Source of the DNA: Desulforhabdus amnigena
GTDB taxonomy: Bacteria; Desulfobacterota; Syntrophobacteria; Syntrophobacterales; Syntrophobacteraceae
Direction of reading: 5' to 3'
Length of the DNA: 64,000 nucleotides
Assembly (NCBI RefSeq): GCF_027925305.1
Contig: NZ_BSDR01000001.1
Span: 1-64,000, forward strand
Position numbers and translations under genes: made by a program. The notes below the pieces were generated by a model that had not been told where the DNA came from, did no database searches, and saw nothing but the letters and a program-made list of their open reading frames with translations. Below, in pieces: positions 1,285-15,612 of this stretch. How positions within the stretch are numbered: the first letter of the stretch is position 1; every line of letters begins with the position of its first letter.

Positions 1285-2586
1285 ATGGATGAGCAGCAAC
1301 AAAAGGATGTGGCCGTATTCCGCTTTGGCGTCATCAGCGACTTTGTCACCCGAAACGCGATGGATCGTGGCGAGCAGGAGAGGCTCCTTACCGAAAAATG
1401 CGAACAGTCCTGGCAGATTCCCCACTCCAACCGCTCCCGCCTGGCCCGATCCACCATCCTCGGCTGGATCAAAGCCTATCGCCAGGGTGGCGGCAGACTC
1501 GAATCCCTTTACCCCGGCAGCCGAAACGACCGTGGGGTGAGCCGGATCATTGACGAGGAAACCGGGGGGCTCATCGCTCGACTGAGGGCCGGGATGCCCA
1601 AATGCTCCCTTCCCACATTGATCAAAGAGCTCGAGAAGCGAAAGCTCCTTCCCGCCGGTATGGTCTTGAGCGAAAGCACCCTCTACCGCTTTCTCAAACG
1701 CGAAGGGCTCCTCAAGGCGGCACCGCCCCCTGCCGTCGATCGCAGGAAATTTGAAGCCGAGCTCCCAAACGATCTGTGGCAAAGCGACGCCCTGCATGGC
1801 CCCCTGGTCATGGTGGGAGAGAAGCGGCGAAAGACCTACCTTTTTGCGTTCATTGACGACATGAGCCGTCTCGTTCCTCATGCCGCCTTCTTTTTAAACG
1901 AGAACCTCGACTCCTACCTGTGCGCACTCAGACGCGCTCTTCTCAAGCGTGGACTTCCCCGCAAGCTCTACGTGGACAATGGAGCCGCCTTCCGCTCCAG
2001 GCTCCTCCACGAGATCACGGCATCCCTTGGAATCGCCCTCGTCCACTCCAAACCCTACAAGCCCCAGGGACGCGGCAAAGTGGAGCGCTTCTTTCAAACC
2101 GTTAGAGCCCAGTTTCTTGCATCCGTTGAGGCAGACTCCCTCGAAGCTCTCAACGAGCAGTTCGACCAATGGGTCACGACCGTCTATCATCAGCGTCCTC
2201 ACGGGGGCACCGGAGAGCCTCCCCTGAAGCGATTTGCCGATCACATGGAATGCATCCGCCCCGCCCCTAAATACCTCGAGGACTACTTCAGGAAGCGCGC
2301 ACGAAGGAAAGTGGCAAACGATCGCACCGTATCGCTCAACGGTAGACTCTACGAGGCTTCTGTCGCCCTCATAGGATCCCAGGTCACCCTCCTCTACAAC
2401 GAGGACGATCCCACCCGGGTCGAAGTCCAGCTCGGGGGCCAATCCCACGGCTTTCTCACCCCCCTTGATCTCAACGTCAACTGCAGGGTGCGCCGCAACC
2501 ACTCGACCGGCCTCGTGATCGAAAACACCGGCAAACCGGCCATTTCTTCCGGCAGGCTTTCCTTCTCCAATCGGGAGGACCAGTAG
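1285..2586 (+). CDS. DDE transposase with Mu-type C-terminal domain
   Basis: A 433-residue transposase. An N-terminal helix-turn-helix region (SRLARSTILGWIKAYRQGG) binds DNA. The integrase core (about residues 150-320) shows the three DDE motifs: WQSDALHGP, YVDNGAAF and the glutamate in GRGKVERFF. A beta-rich C-terminal domain (from about residue 345, NGRLYEASVALIG) matches the Mu-transposase C-terminal barrel. The start at 1285 is chosen because AGGAGG sits seven bases upstream; a longer frame extends upstream to 1192. The gene is intact and ends directly against the ATPase start, a spacing typical of Mu/Tn7-like transposase-ATPase pairs. All catalytic residues are present, so this part may still be functional. 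Confidence 0.85.
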   Translation: MDEQQQKDVAVFRFGVISDFVTRNAMDRGEQERLLTEKCEQSWQIPHSNRSRLARSTILGWIKAYRQGGGRLESLYPGSRNDRGVSRIIDEETGGLIARLRAGMPKCSLPTLIKELEKRKLLPAGMVLSESTLYRFLKREGLLKAAPPPAVDRRKFEAELPNDLWQSDALHGPLVMVGEKRRKTYLFAFIDDMSRLVPHAAFFLNENLDSYLCALRRALLKRGLPRKLYVDNGAAFRSRLLHEITASLGIALVHSKPYKPQGRGKVERFFQTVRAQFLASVEADSLEALNEQFDQWVTTVYHQRPHGGTGEPPLKRFADHMECIRPAPKYLEDYFRKRARRKVANDRTVSLNGRLYEASVALIGSQVTLLYNEDDPTRVEVQLGGQSHGFLTPLDLNVNCRVRRNHSTGLVIENTGKPAISSGRLSFSNREDQ

Positions 2587-3305
2587 ATGAAGCCCTCCTA
2601 TCTCACTTTCTTCGGTTTCCTCCATGAGCCCTTTGGCGCAGACATCCGGATCGATCAGATCCTTCAAACCCCCGAAGTGCTCGCCGTCTCGGACCGGCTC
2701 GAATATACCGTACGCCTTGGCGCCATCGGCCTGGTTACAGGAGATGTCGGATCAGGCAAATCGACGGCCTTGAGATGGGCTCTGAGCCGCCTCCATCCTT
2801 CCGAGTACCGTCCCCTGTGGATCACCGCCTCATCAGACGCCAAATCCTCGAGCTTGCCTGCAACCGCAAACAAAGACCCGTGCTCGTCGTCGATGAAGCC
2901 TCTCTTCTAAGGATCGAAGTCTATGCCGAGCTCCATACCCTCACCCAGTTCGAGGGCGACTCCAAACCTTACCTGCCCATCATCCTGGCCGGCCAGAACA
3001 ATCTGGTCGATCTCCTGCTCTACCGGACTTCCGTCCCCCTGGCATCGAGAATCGTTTCCCGCTGCCACCTCCAGGGTATCACACGAGAGGACATGGACCG
3101 CTACCTCAACCACCATCTCAAAATCAGCGGAGTCTCCCAGCAGATCTTTGCCGATGCGGCCGTTACCGCCATCCAGCAAGGCTCGGGGGGATTGCTCAGA
3201 CGAGCCAGTCATCTCGCCCGGGGCGCCCTCATCGCTGCTGCACATGAAAAAAACCAGATCGTTTCGGCCGAGCACGTGCGCATCGCTTCAACCGAGCTCA
3301 TTTGA
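2587..3305 (+). pseudogene. ExeA/TniB/MuB-like AAA ATPase, internal deletion and frameshift
   Basis: The first frame (2587-2910) begins MKPSYLTFFGFLHEPF and contains the Walker A motif GDVGSGKS. The second frame (2775-3305) resumes at about base 2829 with LIRRQILELACNRKQRP and contains the Walker B motif PVLVVDEAS, followed by LAGQNNLVDLL and the sensor region. Between TASS and LIRRQ, related ATPases have about 25-30 more residues (family knowledge), so a deletion of roughly 80-90 bases that is not a multiple of three has removed them and shifted the frame. In Mu- and Tn7-like systems this ATPase activates the transposase and selects targets; here it is inactive unless complemented elsewhere. 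Confidence 0.8.
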
Positions 3306-6887: not shown

Positions 6888-7658
6888 TTAAAAAGCCTCT
6901 TCGATGAGTCGCCTGAACATGGTTTCATCTTGTAAGGCTTGCCTGTCCATCTCCTGGGCGATTCGCCCCTCCCGAAGAATAAAGAGCCTGTCTGCGAGCC
7001 GCTTCGCCTGGCCCAGGCTGTGTGAGACGGCCACTATGCAATAGTGTTTCTTGAGACGCAGGAGGAGTTGCTCGATTCTGTTCGCCGCTCTGAAATCCAG
7101 TGACGCAGTGGGCTCGTCCAAAAGGAGCGCCTGAGGTTGAAGCGCCAGGGTACGCGCAAGGCAGAGACGCTGCTGCTGTCCCCCCGAGAGAGTCGAAGCG
7201 TCGTCGCGAAGCCTCTCTTTGACCTCATCCCAAAGGGAAGCCTCCCGAAGGGCCCATTCCGTGTGCTCGGACAGAGCCTGCCCCCTTAGGCCAAGGGTCA
7301 CCTTCAGTGGCATAGTGATGTTCTTCTCAATGGAAAAGGGGAGGATCGCCGGAGTTTGAAAAACCATCCCCACCCGCCTCCTGAGCTCATTTGGTGAAAT
7401 GGAGCCCGCATAAATATCCCCGCTCATTCCGTCGAAACGAACCCGAATCGTCCCCTTCGTGCAGCAGTCCGGGGAGCATTCGTTGAGACGGTTGATGGCC
7501 CTCAGGAGGGTTGATTTTCCGGAACCGGAATGTCCTACGATGATTATAAGTTCGCCGGGAAAAACAGAAAGGCTCACATCTTTCAGCACGACTTTCGCCG
7601 CAAAATGAACGGAGAGGCGTTCGATGGCGATAACAGGTTCCACTATTTTTTCTTCCAT
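6888..7658 (-). CDS. pstB: Phosphate ABC transporter ATP-binding protein PstB
   Basis: A 256-residue ABC ATPase that energises phosphate uptake at the inner membrane. Visible motifs are Walker A GHSGSGKST (about residue 42), Q-loop in GMVFQTPAILPF, signature LSGGQQQR, Walker B LLLDEPTASLD and the switch histidine in AVSHS. Length and the PNELRRRVGMVFQ stretch fit PstB and close phosphate/tungstate-type ATPases. Its start overlaps the end of pstA by 16 bases, so it is the last gene of a pstSCAB operon. No phoU follows; the downstream side holds only repeats. Confidence 0.88.
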   Translation of the reverse strand: MEEKIVEPVIAIERLSVHFAAKVVLKDVSLSVFPGELIIIVGHSGSGKSTLLRAINRLNECSPDCCTKGTIRVRFDGMSGDIYAGSISPNELRRRVGMVFQTPAILPFSIEKNITMPLKVTLGLRGQALSEHTEWALREASLWDEVKERLRDDASTLSGGQQQRLCLARTLALQPQALLLDEPTASLDFRAANRIEQLLLRLKKHYCIVAVSHSLGQAKRLADRLFILREGRIAQEMDRQALQDETMFRRLIEEAF

Positions 7659-8521
7659 CGCTTTTCAGCACTTCTTTGCACAAACACAGCAGTGAGGAAC
7701 AAAACTCCAGTCAAGGTCAGGAGAACAAGGGCGGTTCCAAATGCCTGTTCCAGTTCGAGTGGAGTCTTATGTTCCGCCGCAAGGTAATAGATTCGAAATG
7801 GCAGCGCCTCGAACTTGCCCCACAGGCTTTGAGGCACACCTGCTTGCGCGACGACGCCCGTTAGAAGGATGACCGCCGTGTCCTCAGAGGCCCGTCCAAT
7901 GGAGAGGATAACACCGCTCAAAATCCCCCGGCTTGCCAGAGGCAGCAATACATGGCGAATGCTTTGCGACTTTGTAAGTCCCATTGCTGGCCCGAGCACG
8001 CGAAGGTGTTCCGGTACGGCATCCAATGAGGTTTCCGTAGTTCGAATCACGTAAGGCAAGACGAGGAGGGCAATGCACAGGCTTGCGAGAAAAAGGCACG
8101 TTCCAGCTTCCGGAAAAATGGTTTTCCTCAAAAACAAAATGAGGGTAAACCCGAAAAGACCCATAACAATGGATGGAGTTCCTGAGAGAAGATCTATGGC
8201 AAAACCCAGAAAGACTCGAAGGCGCTTCGGCGCATATCCGGAAAGATAGACCCCGCTTGCGATTCCAACAGGGATCGATAAAAGTGATGAAAGGGCCACC
8301 AGTGAAAAGGTTCCGGCAACAGCGGGCCAGATTCCATCAAATACCGGTTTTCGCCCCGTAATGGCGTCAAACCAGGGTGTTTCGCCGAAAAACAGGCTGG
8401 CATTGATGCTTCCGATTCCCCGAAGCAGCAGAAAAACGACGAGGATCGCTACAGTCAGCAGGATTCCCGTCCCTGAAAGCCAGGCAAGACAAGTGAAGAA
8501 CCAATCGGATCTTTTAGGCAT
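7643..8521 (-). CDS. pstA: Phosphate ABC transporter permease PstA
   Basis: A 292-residue inner-membrane permease with about six hydrophobic segments. The first is at residues 10-32 and the binding-protein-dependent transport (EAA-like) loop is visible as LDAVPEHLRVLGPAMGLTK. It pairs with PstC to form the phosphate channel. It overlaps pstC by 8 bases at its 5' end and pstB by 16 bases at its 3' end, so translational coupling is likely. Position and sequence both fit PstA rather than another permease. Confidence 0.88.
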   Translation of the reverse strand: MPKRSDWFFTCLAWLSGTGILLTVAILVVFLLLRGIGSINASLFFGETPWFDAITGRKPVFDGIWPAVAGTFSLVALSSLLSIPVGIASGVYLSGYAPKRLRVFLGFAIDLLSGTPSIVMGLFGFTLILFLRKTIFPEAGTCLFLASLCIALLVLPYVIRTTETSLDAVPEHLRVLGPAMGLTKSQSIRHVLLPLASRGILSGVILSIGRASEDTAVILLTGVVAQAGVPQSLWGKFEALPFRIYYLAAEHKTPLELEQAFGTALVLLTLTGVLFLTAVFVQRSAEKRWKKK

Positions 8522-9425
8522 GCGGGGAACGCCCGGATTTTTTCGCGGCTTTCCTGATGAGGAGGTTTACCGCGCCGGCAAGAAGGAAGAGGATAAGGCC
8601 TGATGCAAAAACGGACTGGTAGGCCATGCTCCGGCTGTCGGTCGCAAGAACGAGGGCGATATGGGAAGTGAGCGTGCGGACGGATGCAAAGAGTGAATGC
8701 GGGAGCTGAGGAGCGTTGCCTGCCAGCATGAGAGAGATCAGAGTATCCCCAATGGCTCTTGCAAATCCCAGGACAGCTGCAATGACGAGTCCTTCGCCTG
8801 CTGCCGGAATGAAAACATGGCGAACCTGCTGCACGGCAGTGAATCCCATTGCCTCCGACGTCAGGCGAAGCGTCGGGTCGAGTTGCTCGAGCCTTGCATG
8901 GAATACAAGGACAATGGTGGGAAGAATAAGCAGGCTCAAAGTCAGGGTCGCTGTAAGGAGAGAAAAACCTGATCCGCCATCAAAACAGTCCCTCACTCTG
9001 GGTACGAGCAGAAAAACGGATACAAAACCGTAGACGACGGTAGGAATACTCGTCATAAAGCGGATCAATGAAAGGAAAAATTGTGCGACGCGCCTGGGTG
9101 CAAGGGCGTAGATGAGGCAGCAAACGCCAATGGCCGGGGGAAAGGCAAGAACCAGAGCCGACAAGGAGAGGCAGAGGGAGGCGGCACACATGGGTAGAAT
9201 GCCGTACTTTCCGCCGAAGGGCTGCCACTGCAGCGAGAATATTTCGTAAATCCTCCCCTCCGTGAAAAGAGGAGAGGAAAAGTACACAAGCAGAAAGAGG
9301 ATCGAAAAGATCGTTACAGCGGAGACCGATGTGGCGATCAAGAGTATCCCTTCAACCCATTTTTCGGAAATTCGGTTACGGGCGATTGCTACCGGCCTCT
9401 CCTCTTTATACGCGGTAGGCATCAT
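8514..9425 (-). CDS. pstC: Phosphate ABC transporter permease PstC
   Basis: A 303-residue permease with six predicted membrane spans. The cytoplasmic coupling loop reads ARLEQLDPTLRLTSEAMGFT and is followed by an AIGDTLISLMLAG segment typical of PstC. The first 20 residues are basic and precede the first span. It overlaps the pstS stop by four bases (ATGA) and pstA by eight, so the four genes form one transcript starting at pstS. It acts with PstA as the membrane channel of the high-affinity phosphate importer. Confidence 0.88.
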   Translation of the reverse strand: MMPTAYKEERPVAIARNRISEKWVEGILLIATSVSAVTIFSILFLLVYFSSPLFTEGRIYEIFSLQWQPFGGKYGILPMCAASLCLSLSALVLAFPPAIGVCCLIYALAPRRVAQFFLSLIRFMTSIPTVVYGFVSVFLLVPRVRDCFDGGSGFSLLTATLTLSLLILPTIVLVFHARLEQLDPTLRLTSEAMGFTAVQQVRHVFIPAAGEGLVIAAVLGFARAIGDTLISLMLAGNAPQLPHSLFASVRTLTSHIALVLATDSRSMAYQSVFASGLILFLLAGAVNLLIRKAAKKSGRSPHA

Positions 9426-10267
9426 TTCGTCTGAAGCGGAATGTATCCATGTTTCTTTACGATCTCAGCCCCTTCGGAGCTCATGACGTAATCAATAAAA
9501 GCTTTTACCAGCTTGGATGGTTCCCCTTTCGTATTCATGTAAAGCTTTCGAACAACCGGATAGCTCCCATTCATGGCGTTTTCCTGTGTAGCGGCAACAC
9601 CATCCAAAGCGAGGGCCTTAATGCTTTGATCCACATGGCCAATGCTCACATAGCCTATGGCATCCTTATCCTGGGATACCGCAACTTTCATCGCGCCGTT
9701 GGATGGAACGATATTCGTCGCTGTCGCCACAGGGCCCTTCTTCAAAAGCTTTTCCCAAAATACCTCGCGAGTCCCACTGGCCTCATCACGGCCAAAGAGA
9801 TGGATCGGTGCATCTTTCCCGCCGACATCCTTCCAATTGGCGATTGTGCCTGCAAAGACGTCTTTAGCCTGCTGCGCTGAAAGCCCTGTGAGGGGATTGT
9901 CCGGATGGACCACTATGGCAACACCGTCCAGCGCGAACGGGTAGGATTTGAGGCCGTACTTGCTGATCTCATCTTCCGAGAGCGGCCGACCGGTGTTTCC
10001 TATATCGACAAGACCTTCGCCGACCTTCTGAACTCCAATGCCTGATCCTCCGCCTTCAATTGTAATGCGGATTTTCGGATTGTATGTCATGATGGCTTTC
10101 GCTGCATCGTTCATGACCGGTATGTGGGCCGTTCCGCCAGCGATGTTGATCGTCCCTTCAAGTCCCGCAAAAGAGTCGAGATCACCGCACAAGGCAGGAT
10201 TTGAAAAAAACAGCAATCCCATCAGAACCAGAACCAAAAGGGTGGACACTCCTCCGTTTTTTCCCAT
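9422..10267 (-). CDS. pstS: Periplasmic phosphate-binding protein PstS
   Basis: A 281-residue substrate-binding protein. An N-terminal signal peptide (GVSTLLVLVLMGLLFFSNPA, cleavage near ALCGDL; a cysteine there leaves open a lipoprotein form) exports it. Phosphate-contact motifs of the PstS family are visible: EGGGSGIG, NTGRPLSEDE, and GRDEASGTREVFW. It captures phosphate in the periplasm and delivers it to PstCA. It is the first gene of the operon, with about 600 bases of upstream sequence where its promoter must lie. I could not find a clear Pho box. Confidence 0.9.
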   Translation of the reverse strand: MGKNGGVSTLLVLVLMGLLFFSNPALCGDLDSFAGLEGTINIAGGTAHIPVMNDAAKAIMTYNPKIRITIEGGGSGIGVQKVGEGLVDIGNTGRPLSEDEISKYGLKSYPFALDGVAIVVHPDNPLTGLSAQQAKDVFAGTIANWKDVGGKDAPIHLFGRDEASGTREVFWEKLLKKGPVATATNIVPSNGAMKVAVSQDKDAIGYVSIGHVDQSIKALALDGVAATQENAMNGSYPVVRKLYMNTKGEPSKLVKAFIDYVMSSEGAEIVKKHGYIPLQTK

Positions 10268-10897
10268 GCTTTTCCCTCCTCAAGACAGTTCAAAGACTAT
10301 ATTGCCATTTTGAAAGTTTGTTGCTGGCAAACAGGCACATGCTATTCTTTCTCGATATTTTGTTCTCCTGTCCGTTCGTGCCGAGGTATCGAAGCATGAG
10401 CAGACTTGATCCTCTTATACGGAGCTGAAATGCCGATTTTGAGATACCAGAAGGGTATAGGAAGAATCGGGAGGTTTTTCAAATTGGAAATATCAATTGA
10501 ATTTTTGTTAAATTATCGTTAAAGGCGATACATCATTATGGTCGATACATGCTTTGTCTTCAAGCAGTAACTGGCTGGACCGGGCGGACGAATCGATAAG
10601 GCGGACCAGTCAACATATCAAAGGAAGCCCTATGGTTTTCGTTCATTCGATTGAGATGGGGTTGTTCGCACATACGCCCCAAAAGCAGGACAGCAAAAGG
10701 GGGGAGTGGTCTGTTTTGATCACTTCCCCTTGAACTTTCCGGTTGGTAGCGAATGGTTCGCCCCTACCAGCTTCCGATTCAGAAGTATTTCCTGAAAATG
10801 GCCCTCGTGTTGGAATCCGCATTGCATGCATGTTCCGTAATTCGACGAGGTTAGGGTATTGACTGTGTAGTAAATTTAGCATAACATATTTTAAATA
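10268..10897. other. Intergenic region between the divergent pstS and kup transcripts
   Basis: No gene is supported. It must hold the minus-strand pst promoter and the plus-strand kup promoter. A palindromic piece GGTAGCGAATGGTTCGCCCC (10744-10763), followed by TACC, resembles common extragenic GGTAGGGGCGAACC-type repeats. An AT-rich stretch at 10860-10896, just ahead of the riboswitch, is a good place for the kup promoter. Confidence 0.5.
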
Positions 10898-11030
10898 TTG
10901 CCGAATCCTGCATGAACAGGAGCGGGGGACCCGGTTTTTTGGGGCGTATCTCCTTTTGAAGGAGTAGAGCAAACTCTTCGGCTCGAGCCCGTCAGCTAAC
11001 CTCGCAGGTGTCGAAGGGTAGAGCTATCCG
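10898..11030 (+). promoter_or_regulatory. c-di-AMP riboswitch (ydaO/yuaA class)
   Basis: The leader of kup contains the conserved blocks of the ydaO/yuaA riboswitch in order: GCGGGGGACCCGGTTTTTTG (10922-10941), GGGGCG, a variable hairpin (CTCCTTTTGAAGGAG), and then CGAGCCCGTCAGCTAACCTC (10984-11003) and GCAGGTGTCGAAGG. This class binds cyclic di-AMP and is classically found before potassium-transport genes and cell-wall genes, where the ligand turns expression off. Its place directly before kup strongly supports the call. Confidence 0.93.
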
Positions 11031-11040
11031 GAGTTGTCCG

Positions 11041-11091
11041 GGGAGGTCTATCCTCCTAACAATCTAACGATTGAGCTTCGGAGGCTTTCAG
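11041..11091 (+). promoter_or_regulatory. kup ribosome-binding region with pairing sequences
   Basis: GGGAGG (11041-11046), CCTCC (11052-11056) and the kup Shine-Dalgarno GGAGG (11080-11084) are mutually complementary. CCTCC can pair either with the upstream GGGAGG or with the Shine-Dalgarno itself. No run of T follows that would make an intrinsic terminator. This suggests the riboswitch acts on translation; it is inferred from base pairing only. Confidence 0.5.
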
Positions 11092-13077
11092 TTGAAAAAA
11101 CTTTCTTCCTCTAATGGCGGAAATCCGTCTTCCTTACATCCACTTCATTCCCTGGAATCGTCTAAAAGTCATCCTTCAGCCGAAATTGAAGCTTTGAACA
11201 GCGGCGTTTCGCCCCGGGCGAGGACACTTGCTCTGGCACTGGGAGCCCTCGGGGTGGTTTATGGGGATATTGGTACGAGTCCTCTTTACGCTGTCAAGGA
11301 ATGTTTTCACGGATTGCATGCAATTGCCCTGAACACAGGGAATATTCTTGGAGTACTATCGCTTATTTTTTGGTCGCTTACCATGGTGGTGAGCATAAAG
11401 TATGTGGCTTTCATCTTGCGTGCGGACAACAACGGAGAGGGGGGAATCTACGCCCTCCTTGCACTCATTCCCGTAAGCAAAAGCTCGATTCCGACGCGCA
11501 TTCATTCTGCTGTGGTTATCGCTGCCATATTCGGTGCAGCTCTCCTCTACGGGGATGGCATCATAACTCCGGCCATCTCTGTACTCTCCGCCATTGAGGG
11601 CCTTAAGGTTGCAACAGAATCTGCATCTTCTTTTATATTGCCTCTTACCTGTGTCGTACTTCTGTTGCTCTTTCTGGTGCAGCGGCATGGTACAGCTGGG
11701 ATCGGGAAGGTCTTCGGCCCCATCGTCCTCATCTGGTTTGCAGCGATTGCAGCACTCGGTATTGCTGCAATCAAGTCAAATCCCCATATATTGATCGCAT
11801 TAAACCCTCTTTATGCCATATCCTTTTTTGCTGAAAACAGGTTACATGGCATGGTGGTGCTTGGATCGGTCGTCCTTTGCATAACAGGAGGTGAAGCGCT
11901 TTATGCAGATCTTGGGCACTTCGGGACCAAAGCCATTCGGCTCTCATGGTTTTCCATCGCTTTTCCTGCACTTCTTCTCAATTATTTCGGGCAGGGCGCG
12001 CTTCTTCTCGACAATCCGGATTTTGCTTTCAATCCCTTTTATGGATTAGTTCCAAAATCTTTTCTCTATCCCATGGTTGCATTATCCACTATGGCGACAG
12101 TCATCGCATCGCAGGCGATGATCACCGGAGTCTTTTCCCTCACGCAGCAAGCGGTGCAGCTTGGATTTTCTCCCCGCATGCACATCGTGCATACTTCTTC
12201 CGAAACCCGGGGCCAGATCTATGTCCCTCACATAAACTATGCTTTGATGCTCGCCTGCATCGGACTTGTGCTTGCCTTCCGGGAGTCGAGCCGTTTGGCA
12301 GGAGCATACGGCATTGCGGTTACTGCAACAATGGGGATCACATCGGTTCTTTACTTTTTCGTCACTACCCGGAGATGGCAGTGGTCGCTCTGGAAGGCTA
12401 TTCCATTGGTGGGCATCTTCATTGTCTTTGATCTGGCCTATTTCGGTTCAAATCTTTTGAAGCTTGCTGATGGAGGGTGGTTTACACTCGCTGTCGGGGC
12501 AGTCATCATGATTGCCATGACCACATGGCGGGATGGACGGGCTGAGCTTGCGAGGAAGATGTTGAGCACAAGGTTTCCGCTGAGCCTTTTCATAGAGGAC
12601 GTTGCACAAAAGAATCCGCAGCGGGTCCAGGGGACAGCCGTTTTCATGACGGTTTCTCCGGTTGGGACCCCTTCGGCGCTCCTGCATCACTTCAAGCACA
12701 ATCATGTGTTGCATGAAAAGATCATTTTGCTCTCGGTCCGCTCTGTAGATTTTCCAACGTTACCGGACGATGAAAGACTCAACATGGAGGATCTGGGCCA
12801 GGGGTTCTACAGGATTGTTGCGTTCTATGGATTCAGGGAAATGCCTGACGTTCCGGAAGTATTGAAAATGGCTTCCCGTTTTGGAATTCAGATTGAGCCC
12901 TCTGCTACAACCTATTTCCTGGGGCGTGAGACACTGCTTACTACCGGGGACTCGAAAATGATGCAATGGCGCAAGACGCTTTTTTCCTTCATGTCAAGAA
13001 ATGCCTGGACCGCACCGGCCTACTTTGGCATTCCATCGGACCGTGTGATCGAAATAGGTGTGCAGATAGAACTTTGA
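11092..13077 (+). CDS. kup: Kup-type potassium uptake permease
   Basis: A 661-residue inner-membrane K+ transporter of the KUP/HAK family. The signature GVVYGDIGTSPLYAVKECF lies in the first membrane span. About 12 hydrophobic segments follow to residue ~450, then a cytosolic C-terminal domain ending DRVIEIGVQIEL, as usual for Kup. The TTG at 11092 is chosen over TTG 11071 because GGAGG is placed seven bases before it. It is a single-gene transcript under a c-di-AMP riboswitch, so uptake should fall when c-di-AMP is high. Family length is about 620-680, which it matches. Confidence 0.93.
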   Translation: MKKLSSSNGGNPSSLHPLHSLESSKSHPSAEIEALNSGVSPRARTLALALGALGVVYGDIGTSPLYAVKECFHGLHAIALNTGNILGVLSLIFWSLTMVVSIKYVAFILRADNNGEGGIYALLALIPVSKSSIPTRIHSAVVIAAIFGAALLYGDGIITPAISVLSAIEGLKVATESASSFILPLTCVVLLLLFLVQRHGTAGIGKVFGPIVLIWFAAIAALGIAAIKSNPHILIALNPLYAISFFAENRLHGMVVLGSVVLCITGGEALYADLGHFGTKAIRLSWFSIAFPALLLNYFGQGALLLDNPDFAFNPFYGLVPKSFLYPMVALSTMATVIASQAMITGVFSLTQQAVQLGFSPRMHIVHTSSETRGQIYVPHINYALMLACIGLVLAFRESSRLAGAYGIAVTATMGITSVLYFFVTTRRWQWSLWKAIPLVGIFIVFDLAYFGSNLLKLADGGWFTLAVGAVIMIAMTTWRDGRAELARKMLSTRFPLSLFIEDVAQKNPQRVQGTAVFMTVSPVGTPSALLHHFKHNHVLHEKIILLSVRSVDFPTLPDDERLNMEDLGQGFYRIVAFYGFREMPDVPEVLKMASRFGIQIEPSATTYFLGRETLLTTGDSKMMQWRKTLFSFMSRNAWTAPAYFGIPSDRVIEIGVQIEL

Positions 13078-13236: not shown

Positions 13237-14277
13237 TTAGTAGCCTTCTTCTTGAGCCAATTCGGATGTCTTCACCTTGTCTTTGAAGAAATGATAGACC
13301 CATGACTGGTAGATGATGATGATCGGAACGAAGATTAGGGCCACGCCCAGCATGATTTTCAGGGTGAGGGGGCTAGACGCGGAATTGAAAATCGTCATGC
13401 TGTAGGCGGGATTGATGCTCGATGGGAGCAGATTCGGGTAGAGGCCGGCCACGCCAAAGAGAGTGACTCCCACGATGAGGGTGCAGGAAGCAAACCAGGT
13501 TTTCCACCAATGCCCTCTGGCCATATAGATGCGAAGCATGACCAGCGCTCCAACGGCGATGAAGGGAATGAGGACGATGGGAACCATGAAGAGAAACGGG
13601 TTCTGAAGATAGTTGTCGTAAAGCCGCGTGTAAAACCACGTACAAACCAGGAACGCTACGGCCACGACGGCAAGAGCGATCCAAAGCTTTCCCGCCAGGG
13701 CCGCGGACCTGTCGTGCAGTTCCCCTTCGGTTTTCACTGCCAGCCAGACAGCGCCATGCACCGTGAAAAGGAGCGTAAAGAAGATCCCTCCCAGGAGTCC
13801 GTAGGGATTGAGCAGAGAAAAGAGATTTCCCTGAAAGACGCCGGCTTCATCGATGGGGATTCCCTGGAAAATGTTGGCAAAAGCCACACCCAGCAGAAGG
13901 GCGGGTGCAAGACTTCCGATGAAAAGGCAGGCATCCCAGATGGATTTCCAGCGGGGATTTTCCACCTGGTGCCGGAATTCGTTGGCGACGCCACGCAGAA
14001 TGAGCGCAAAGAGGATCAGCATGAGCGCTGAATAGAGTCCGCTGAACATGACGGCGTAGGTGGCGGGGAAGGCTGCGAATGTGACACCGCCTGCAGTGAT
14101 GAGCCATACTTCGTTTCCGTTCCAGTAGGGCCCCATGGCATGGTAGACGACCCGCTTGTCCGTCTCGTCTTTTGCCAGAAAGGGCATCAGGGTCCCAATG
14201 CCGAGGTCGAAGCCGTCGAGCATGAAATAGATGGCCCAGAGAACGCCCCAGAGTACGAACCAAATGGATTCAAGCAT
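13237..14277 (-). CDS. cydB: Cytochrome bd oxidase subunit II
   Basis: A 346-residue membrane protein, second subunit of the cytochrome bd quinol oxidase. The N-terminus MLESIWFVLWGVLWAIYFML and the following DGFDLGIGTLMPF are diagnostic for CydB, as is GPYWNGNEVWL. About eight hydrophobic spans follow. It starts 18 bases after the cydA stop with its own GAGGG site, so the two are co-transcribed. No cydX-like small frame is obvious after it. In an anaerobe this oxidase scavenges O2 and protects low-potential enzymes. Confidence 0.93.
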   Translation of the reverse strand: MLESIWFVLWGVLWAIYFMLDGFDLGIGTLMPFLAKDETDKRVVYHAMGPYWNGNEVWLITAGGVTFAAFPATYAVMFSGLYSALMLILFALILRGVANEFRHQVENPRWKSIWDACLFIGSLAPALLLGVAFANIFQGIPIDEAGVFQGNLFSLLNPYGLLGGIFFTLLFTVHGAVWLAVKTEGELHDRSAALAGKLWIALAVVAVAFLVCTWFYTRLYDNYLQNPFLFMVPIVLIPFIAVGALVMLRIYMARGHWWKTWFASCTLIVGVTLFGVAGLYPNLLPSSINPAYSMTIFNSASSPLTLKIMLGVALIFVPIIIIYQSWVYHFFKDKVKTSELAQEEGY

Positions 14278-14295
14278 TTTCAGTCCCTCCTCGAA

Positions 14296-15612
14296 TCATG
14301 CAGCAACCGCTTCGGGTTGAGGACCCTTGCGCGCATGAGAGATGATGAGATAAAAGGCAACCGCACCCAGCAATGAATAGACCCCTATGAAGGCCAGGAG
14401 AGAGACGAAAACCTGTGAGGTCGCAATGGGAGAAACGGCATCGGAGGTTTTCATGATCCCGTAGACCACCCATGGTTGCCTTCCCACTTCGGCAAGGGTC
14501 CATCCCGCTTCGGCGGCCAGGTAGGGGAGGGGTACGGCGTAAAGCATGATTTTGAGGAAACCGGGGCTCTCTTCCAGCTTGTTGCGTCTGAACCATCCAT
14601 AAATAGTGAGAAACAGGAATAAAAATCCTAGTGCGATCATTATTCTGAAGGATACGAAAGAAAGGGTCACAGGGGGGCGCTCTTCTTTGGGAAAATCCTT
14701 GAGTCCCTTCACCGTAGCATTGGGAGAGTGGTAAGCGAGCATGCTCAGGGCGCCGGGCATACCGCCGAATTCGACGAGATTTTTTTCATTCTTCTCGTCG
14801 GGGATCAGGAAGAGATATTGCGGAGCCCTTTGAGTCGTTTCCCAGAGAGATTCCATGGCTGCCAGCTTGGTGGGTTGCACTTTGGCCACTTCAGCGCCGT
14901 GCATGTGTCCCTGGACCACTTCAACGATGGAAAAAATCAGGGCAAGAGCGAGTCCCATTCGAAATGATTTGGCGAAAAACGTGGTGTGCTGCTTTTTCAA
15001 GAGATGGTAAGCGCAAATGCTCATGACAAAGAAACCCGAAAGAATGTAGGCTGCGCTCAGAGTGTGTACAATGGTGTGCATGGCAAAAGGCTGAGTGATA
15101 ACTGCCAGGAAATCGGTGAGTTCCGCCCTGCCGTTGCGAATCGTGAATCCCACGGGATGCTGCATCCACGAGTTGGCAATGAGAATCCACCACGCTGAGA
15201 GGTTCGATGCGATGGCCACAAGCCAGATGGAGACAGCGTGCGCCTTGGGAGAAAGCCTGTTCCATCCGAACGCCCAGACGGCAATGAAAGTGGATTCCAG
15301 GAAAAAGGCGAGAGTGGCCTCTATGGCCAGGAGCGATCCAAAGATATCGCCTACGTAGGTGGAATATCGGGACCAGTTGGTTCCGAATTGAAATTCCAGA
15401 GTGATCCCTGTCACGACACCGATGGCGAAATTGATGAGAAAAATCTTGCCCCAGAACCTGGCCATTCTTTTGTACTCTTCATCGCCGGTTCTGACATAAG
15501 CGGTTTCCATGAGGGCAATGAGGATGGAAAGCCCTAGAGTGAGGGGGACAAAAAGGAAATGGAACATTGTTGCAGCCGCAAACTGAAGCCGCGAAAGCAT
15601 GAGAACGTCCAT
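14296..15612 (-). CDS. cydA: Cytochrome bd oxidase subunit I
   Basis: A 438-residue subunit that binds hemes b558, b595 and d and oxidises quinol to reduce O2 to water. The first-helix heme ligand is visible in TMFHFLFVPLTLG, and further conserved features are FQFGTNWSRYS, the Q-loop start (TKLAAMESLWETTQ), and GRQPWVVYGIMKT near the C-terminus. The Q-loop is short, so it is a CIO-like or short-loop enzyme rather than the E. coli long-loop form. A strong AGGAAGGAG site precedes the ATG. First gene of a cydAB operon. Confidence 0.94.
   Translation of the reverse strand: MDVLMLSRLQFAAATMFHFLFVPLTLGLSILIALMETAYVRTGDEEYKRMARFWGKIFLINFAIGVVTGITLEFQFGTNWSRYSTYVGDIFGSLLAIEATLAFFLESTFIAVWAFGWNRLSPKAHAVSIWLVAIASNLSAWWILIANSWMQHPVGFTIRNGRAELTDFLAVITQPFAMHTIVHTLSAAYILSGFFVMSICAYHLLKKQHTTFFAKSFRMGLALALIFSIVEVVQGHMHGAEVAKVQPTKLAAMESLWETTQRAPQYLFLIPDEKNEKNLVEFGGMPGALSMLAYHSPNATVKGLKDFPKEERPPVTLSFVSFRIMIALGFLFLFLTIYGWFRRNKLEESPGFLKIMLYAVPLPYLAAEAGWTLAEVGRQPWVVYGIMKTSDAVSPIATSQVFVSLLAFIGVYSLLGAVAFYLIISHARKGPQPEAVAA

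Follow-up and report, generated by a model that had tools for sequence, protein, structure and literature searches.

The window, i.e. the whole stretch of 64,000 nucleotides at the start of contig NZ_BSDR01000001.1 of Desulforhabdus amnigena, contains a gene for a potassium importer of the Kup family. Its product exceeds the cut-offs of the K_trans (PF02705, 626.3 bits), K_trans_C (PF22776, 165.4 bits) and TIGR00794 (594.5 vs 539.6 bits) models, the narrower PRK10745 model not being reached (721.3 vs 883), so that the original prediction was right to link a riboswitch to kup. The open frame opens at TTG 11071, but the start is most likely TTG 11092, since an ATG with its own GGAGG aligns at this position in the nearest relatives; the Shine-Dalgarno sequence GGAGG (11080-11084) is then separated from the start by a 7 nt spacer. 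Locally, kup is alone on its strand, as the genes on either side run in the opposite direction: upstream of the leader lie ABC transporter genes (6888-10267, minus strand; a solute-binding protein, two permease subunits and an ATPase), and downstream of kup, the genes of cytochrome bd subunits II and I (13237-15612, minus strand).

Scanning the window with Rfam yielded a match to RF00379 (c-di-AMP, ydaO/yuaA) on the plus strand of the kup leader, covering positions 1-134 of the 134 in the model with an E-value of 2.5e-23 for the window. It is the sole Rfam family at its gathering score in the window, and the only match to RF00379 in the whole 4.54 Mb genome. The original prediction had placed the leader in the ydaO/yuaA class; the match is full-length, and its score, rather than falling far below the family cut-off, is 102.8 bits, where the gathering score is 38. 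To judge by this match, the kup leader clearly carries a complete, genuine c-di-AMP riboswitch aptamer, ahead of a gene of the K+/osmolyte handling class, and is predicted to bind c-di-AMP. The second kup gene of the genome (G000:C1:417979-419325; L150, L151) has no upstream RF00379 match at E-values up to 1, and a genome of the same genus (G001) has two aptamers, each ahead of kup (L010, L018).

Between the aptamer and the gene we distinguish five segments (A to E), which are predicted to form two alternative folds, denoted ON and OFF by the proposed state of kup translation. The features of the locus, all on the plus strand, are:

10859..10887, +: promoter-like site TTGACT-17-TAACAT ahead of the aptamer (consensus scan, 9 of 12 matches)
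10889..11025, +: c-di-AMP riboswitch aptamer (RF00379, 102.8 bits), its last bases overlapping the expression platform
10973..10980, +: loop of an aptamer hairpin (ACUCUUCG), which supplies the 5' strand of the pseudoknot and pairs with 11012-11019 (fixed-register pairing in 39 leaders)
11012..11019, +: segment A as the 3' strand of the pseudoknot (CGAAGGGU; swap test and fixed-register count)
11015..11022, +: segment A forming the 5' arm (AGGGUAGA) of the hairpin proposed for the ON state, 8 bp with 11047-11054
11022..11035, +: segment B, the anti-Shine-Dalgarno strand (AGCUAUCCGGAGUU, A11026 bulged), 13 bp with 11074-11086 (covariation)
11037..11046, +: segment C, pairing with B in the ON hairpin (11037-11045) and with D in the OFF fold (11041-11046; folds)
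11047..11057, +: segment D, of which 11047-11054 pairs with A (ON) and 11052-11057 with C (OFF; pairing and folds)
11060..11073, +: small hairpin CAAUC/GAUUG inside the OFF fold (fold)
11074..11086, +: segment E, the Shine-Dalgarno sequence and the bases around it, which B covers in the OFF fold (covariation and folds)
11092..13077, +: kup, Kup-family potassium importer, TTG start, 661 aa (PF02705, PF22776 and TIGR00794 over cut-off)

The promoter-like site is to be read with the fact that the count of such sites is no better than chance (one found vs 0.5 expected in shuffles). The 13 bp between B (11022-11025 and 11027-11035) and E span all of GGAGG, and the 8 bp between A and D involve the stretch UCUAUCCU of the latter. 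Five bases, 11015-11019, are contested between the pseudoknot and the A:D helix. The A:D and B:E helices, in turn, share base 11022 and cross, and hence are mutually exclusive as nested helices.

The use of such an aptamer had been taken to imply that c-di-AMP is made in this host, and a diadenylate cyclase gene was to be looked for. A profile search of the genome revealed a 483-aa frame with a DAC domain (127.2 bits, cut-off 27) and a YbbR domain (59.6 bits), CdaA_N scoring 23.7, just under its cut-off of 23.8. As the score of the CdaA equivalog model TIGR00159 (178 bits) does not reach the cut-off (188.8), we call the protein CdaA-like. Its translation contains DGA and RHR, which we take to be the catalytic motifs; the genome also encodes a 7TMR-HDED/7TM/HD protein (a 7TM-HD phosphodiesterase), presumably of the PgpH architecture. 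Synthesis of c-di-AMP is thus well supported by the genes, yet not surprising, because both parts are already in print: Deltaproteobacteria are named among c-di-AMP makers (PMC5575661), and ydaO-class switches ahead of ktr, trk, kdp and kup are predicted in phyla including Proteobacteria (PMC6488665). In a second protein (L002, G000:C1:522932-526168, frame 1438-2778, minus strand), a DACNV sensor domain scores 111.4 bits, whereas the DAC-like end, which reads DGA and RHHS, is degenerate and stays under the cut-off at 23.4 bits; this protein is possibly an altered cyclase. Among 59 relatives, RF00379 was found in 15 and a DAC match in 55; all 15 aptamer carriers, this genome included, also have the DAC match, while 40 relatives have DAC and no detected aptamer. 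Being near-universal in the group, the cyclase tells little about the switch itself.

For comparison of the platforms, the fetched loci yielded 136 aptamer-core matches. Of these, 69 were kept and 67 dropped: 66 lacked the required combination of a Shine-Dalgarno sequence, a start and an open frame of 35 codons or more within the set range, and one contained an N. With one leader added by hand (L018) there were 70, in 59 of which the start lies within 92 nt; 39 representatives of these 59 compact leaders, under 75% identity, were used in a partner-swap test. Some real translational leaders, such as L034, are missed because of the Shine-Dalgarno filter, and most leaders were fetched with a pattern in which the first bases of A are set to GTCGA. 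In the swap test, the pairing energy of each leader's own partners is compared to that of partners swapped between leaders (5000 permutations), kinship between the leaders being ignored. Columns were counted on an alignment of 35 of the 59 leaders (A1), which were picked for a regular platform before counting, favouring a common register; the 24 left out comprise 11 of the Desulfovibrionales type (GACCTCC) and 13 irregular or near-duplicate ones. Since the register of A:D differs among leaders and gaps of the MAFFT alignment interrupt A, counting by columns was confined to B:E and D:E, and the pseudoknot was scored by script in a fixed register.

In the 39 leaders, with kinship ignored, the strongest signals were observed for the loop and A (z = -8.3) and for B and E (z = -7.7), none of the 5000 permutations being as good in either case. 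The pseudoknot in its fixed register has 93% of cells paired and 26 standard pair types, compared to 40-64% and 17-23 when slid. For B:E the signal persists when the Shine-Dalgarno core is cut off (z = -3.5, 4/5000; 39 leaders). On A1, 77.4% of B:E cells are paired, compared to 73.0% in shuffles (0/500 as high) and 31-58% in slid registers; the covariation score of 0.200 is reached by none of the 500 shuffles, and there are 28 cells changed on both sides (9/500) and seven double-change pairs (63/500). The A:D signal, calculated for A and the mid-part holding D, is weaker (z = -3.2, 5/5000; 39 leaders). In subsets, loop:A and B:E hold everywhere with z of -5.0 or stronger; A:D is seen in the 18 non-kup leaders (z = -3.2, 3/5000), and in the 21 kup leaders alone, where D varies little, it drops to z = -1.2 (610/5000). 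Control pairings that are not expected to form yielded z = +1.0 (A:E), +0.9 (loop:B) and 0.0 (loop:mid). An early idea of pairing between A and B was ruled out by the same test (z = +0.4, 39 leaders). The B:C pairing has no covariation support (z = 0.0, 39 leaders) and is kept in the model because both segments are conserved and pair in the predicted folds. Sequence and comparison together show that the co-evolving helices are loop:A, B:E and, more weakly, A:D, and that the Shine-Dalgarno sequence sits in a conserved, covarying helix.

The original prediction had described the switch differently, as three mutually complementary hexamers hiding or freeing the Shine-Dalgarno sequence. All the quoted blocks are present (GGGAGG at 11041-11046, CCTCC at 11052-11056, GGAGG at 11080-11084), and sequestration of the Shine-Dalgarno sequence is still predicted; the choice of the strand is not supported, as the co-evolving partner is 11022-11035, absent from the three blocks. 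In the OFF fold, as predicted, an inner hairpin joins the first two blocks. If CCTCC were to sequester the Shine-Dalgarno sequence in competition with GGGAGG, one could point to the complementarity and conservation of the strands, with 93.1% of cells pairing in the 35 leaders. Both sides, however, are nearly invariant, and covariation on A1 is no better than in shuffles (205/500); own partners pair worse than swapped ones in the 39 leaders (z = +2.3; 4954/5000 as good or better) and in the 21 kup leaders (z = +2.9). Hence we rejected this pairing as a supported sequestering helix. Choosing complementary blocks by eye from a single leader can point to the wrong strand: CCTCC is conserved but does not covary.

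Folding bears on the same question. The fold of the whole leader barely beats shuffles (z = -1.73, 11/200 as good), and the strength of the evidence thus comes from the covariance-model score and the relatives, as folding of a single sequence adds little. The free fold of 11012-11103 is the ON hairpin, with A:D outside and B:C inside (-31.5 kcal/mol); if 11012-11019 is kept unpaired, mimicking the pseudoknot, the OFF fold is obtained, with B:E outside and C:D (11041-11046 with 11052-11057) inside (-30.7 kcal/mol). The two differ by 0.8 kcal/mol. As A is moved into the pseudoknot in the window sequence, the Shine-Dalgarno sequence pairs with B at 0.95 rather than 0.06, and the fraction of it that is unpaired drops from 0.45 to 0.05; in the ON state this fraction is only 0.45 because of a weak local hairpin around the Shine-Dalgarno sequence. 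With A free, a fold with CCTCC on the Shine-Dalgarno sequence (D:E) costs just the same 0.8 kcal/mol, being equal to the B:E fold at -30.7 kcal/mol. With A in the pseudoknot, however, it is 4.9 kcal/mol worse (-25.8 vs -30.7), and pairing of the Shine-Dalgarno sequence with the mid-part does not exceed 0.04 in the window ensemble. Taking these folds and the swap test together, we consider sequestration by CCTCC improbable, and retain B as the anti-Shine-Dalgarno strand.

The same calculation for the other leaders gave a less uniform picture. In 18 of the 39, B:E pairing is above 0.9 already with A free; blocking A cuts the accessibility of the Shine-Dalgarno sequence by more than 0.02 in 15, and in two the accessibility rises. 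Equilibrium folding thus shows no switch in most leaders, and a co-transcriptional step would be needed. When the leaders are ended before E, 35 of the 39 fold with at least three expected A:D pairs. This level is reached by 90% of real constructs, 76% of those with a foreign A, and 63% of those with a shuffled mid-part (on average 6.2, 4.9 and 3.9 A:D pairs, respectively). The ON hairpin, in our model, would form first in transcription and be undone when the ligand holds A.

The direction of control may be deduced from the topology of the helices and from the published Bacillus members of the class. Since 11015-11019 can pair either in the pseudoknot or in A:D, and the A:D and B:E helices cross, stabilization of the pseudoknot predicts OFF; also, c-di-AMP represses kimA and kdp in Bacillus via the same class (PMC5575661, PMC6488665). 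The reverse, with c-di-AMP binding exposing the Shine-Dalgarno sequence and turning kup on, could arise if platform bases besides A invaded the aptamer as well, and seems to us very improbable given these observations. The reading in which the c-di-AMP riboswitch turns off kup translation is, in our opinion, probably correct.

Control by transcription termination, intrinsic or Rho-dependent, would make the helix on the Shine-Dalgarno sequence a side effect. We observed no intrinsic terminator-like site in 10700-11200, and none between the aptamer and the kup start, in agreement with the translational rather than intrinsic-terminator platform predicted originally; a second test at the kup locus found none either. 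More widely, a survey of 395 genomes of the phylum detected RF00379 in 51, with 50 above the cut-off, and the 43 loci fetched from this survey and that of the relatives form several fractions. In the first group (n = 21) the B:E helix is at least as stable as -12 kcal/mol, three of these loci being also terminator-flagged, at 89-120 nt. The second (n = 10) carries the terminator flag and no such helix, and suggests that termination does operate elsewhere in the phylum; the remaining loci (n = 12) show neither feature in these tests. Among the kup-linked loci, however, 16 of 19 have the B:E helix at this energy or better. Termination as the means of kup control is thus the least probable of the alternatives, and we keep to control at the level of translation.

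Leaders with the B:E helix also include records of Planctomycetota, Phycisphaerales, Phycisphaerae and a planctomycete (L056, L057, L108, L127), with kimA-like genes, typed by a short motif in the script, behind L057 and L127. In the Desulfovibrionales-type leaders (L034, L041, L067, L077, L085, L140 and similar ones), a near-perfect inverted repeat ACCTCCGGTAC / GTACCGGAGG surrounds the Shine-Dalgarno sequence; judged from its sequence, it is a simpler form of the B:E helix. In several Syntrophobacteraceae the aptamer is also situated ahead of a membrane-protein gene with the motif ITLMDEFTSIFY (L004, L009, L011, L012, L013, L014, L016, L022, L027).

Compared to the systems described, the kup leader shares with the RF00379 class the complete aptamer and the K+-importer target, whereas the host here belongs to Syntrophobacteraceae and control is predicted at translation and not by a terminator. 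PMC6488665 describes a terminator-type member of the class that is turned off by c-di-AMP. The Bacillus thuringiensis kdpFABC riboswitch, as presented there, has the same aptamer class, a K+ uptake target and the expected repression by c-di-AMP, but uses an intrinsic terminator, in contrast to the kup leader. PMC10907184 groups ydaO with switches whose ligand-bound aptamer docks a downstream strand. The 'interdomain docking' riboswitches considered there (preQ1-III, cobalamin) are similar in that the ligand-bound aptamer recruits a downstream strand to a loop; in the kup leader, however, the recruited strand would be an arm of the hairpin that otherwise occupies the anti-Shine-Dalgarno strand, and not the Shine-Dalgarno sequence itself. 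A literature search for translational platforms of this class and for Deltaproteobacteria/Syntrophobacter did not yield this arrangement; the primary papers (Nelson 2013, Block 2010 and three structures of 2014) lie outside its coverage and may describe it. As far as searched, then, this is a known riboswitch class with a well-conserved translational platform for which we found no description.

We propose the following scheme. Without c-di-AMP, the nascent leader would fold A and B against C and D into one long hairpin before E is transcribed, leaving the Shine-Dalgarno sequence outside, and Kup would be made. When c-di-AMP holds the aptamer and the pseudoknot, A (11015-11022) would be unavailable to D (11047-11054); the ON hairpin would fail, B (11022-11035) would pair with E, C would pair with D, and the ribosome would be kept off. 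High K+ would raise c-di-AMP, and further K+ import would be shut off. The broader claim, that the five-segment translational platform is a conserved and widespread one among c-di-AMP riboswitches, set kinetically rather than at equilibrium, and present in Desulfobacterota and in Planctomycetota records in front of kup and kimA-like genes, we regard as evenly balanced.

The strand common to the pseudoknot and the hairpin pinpoints the bases to mutate. If correct, the scheme would describe at the level of single bases how a sulfate-reducing lineage may use c-di-AMP to control the translation of a K+ importer, whereas this riboswitch class was worked out in Gram-positive systems.
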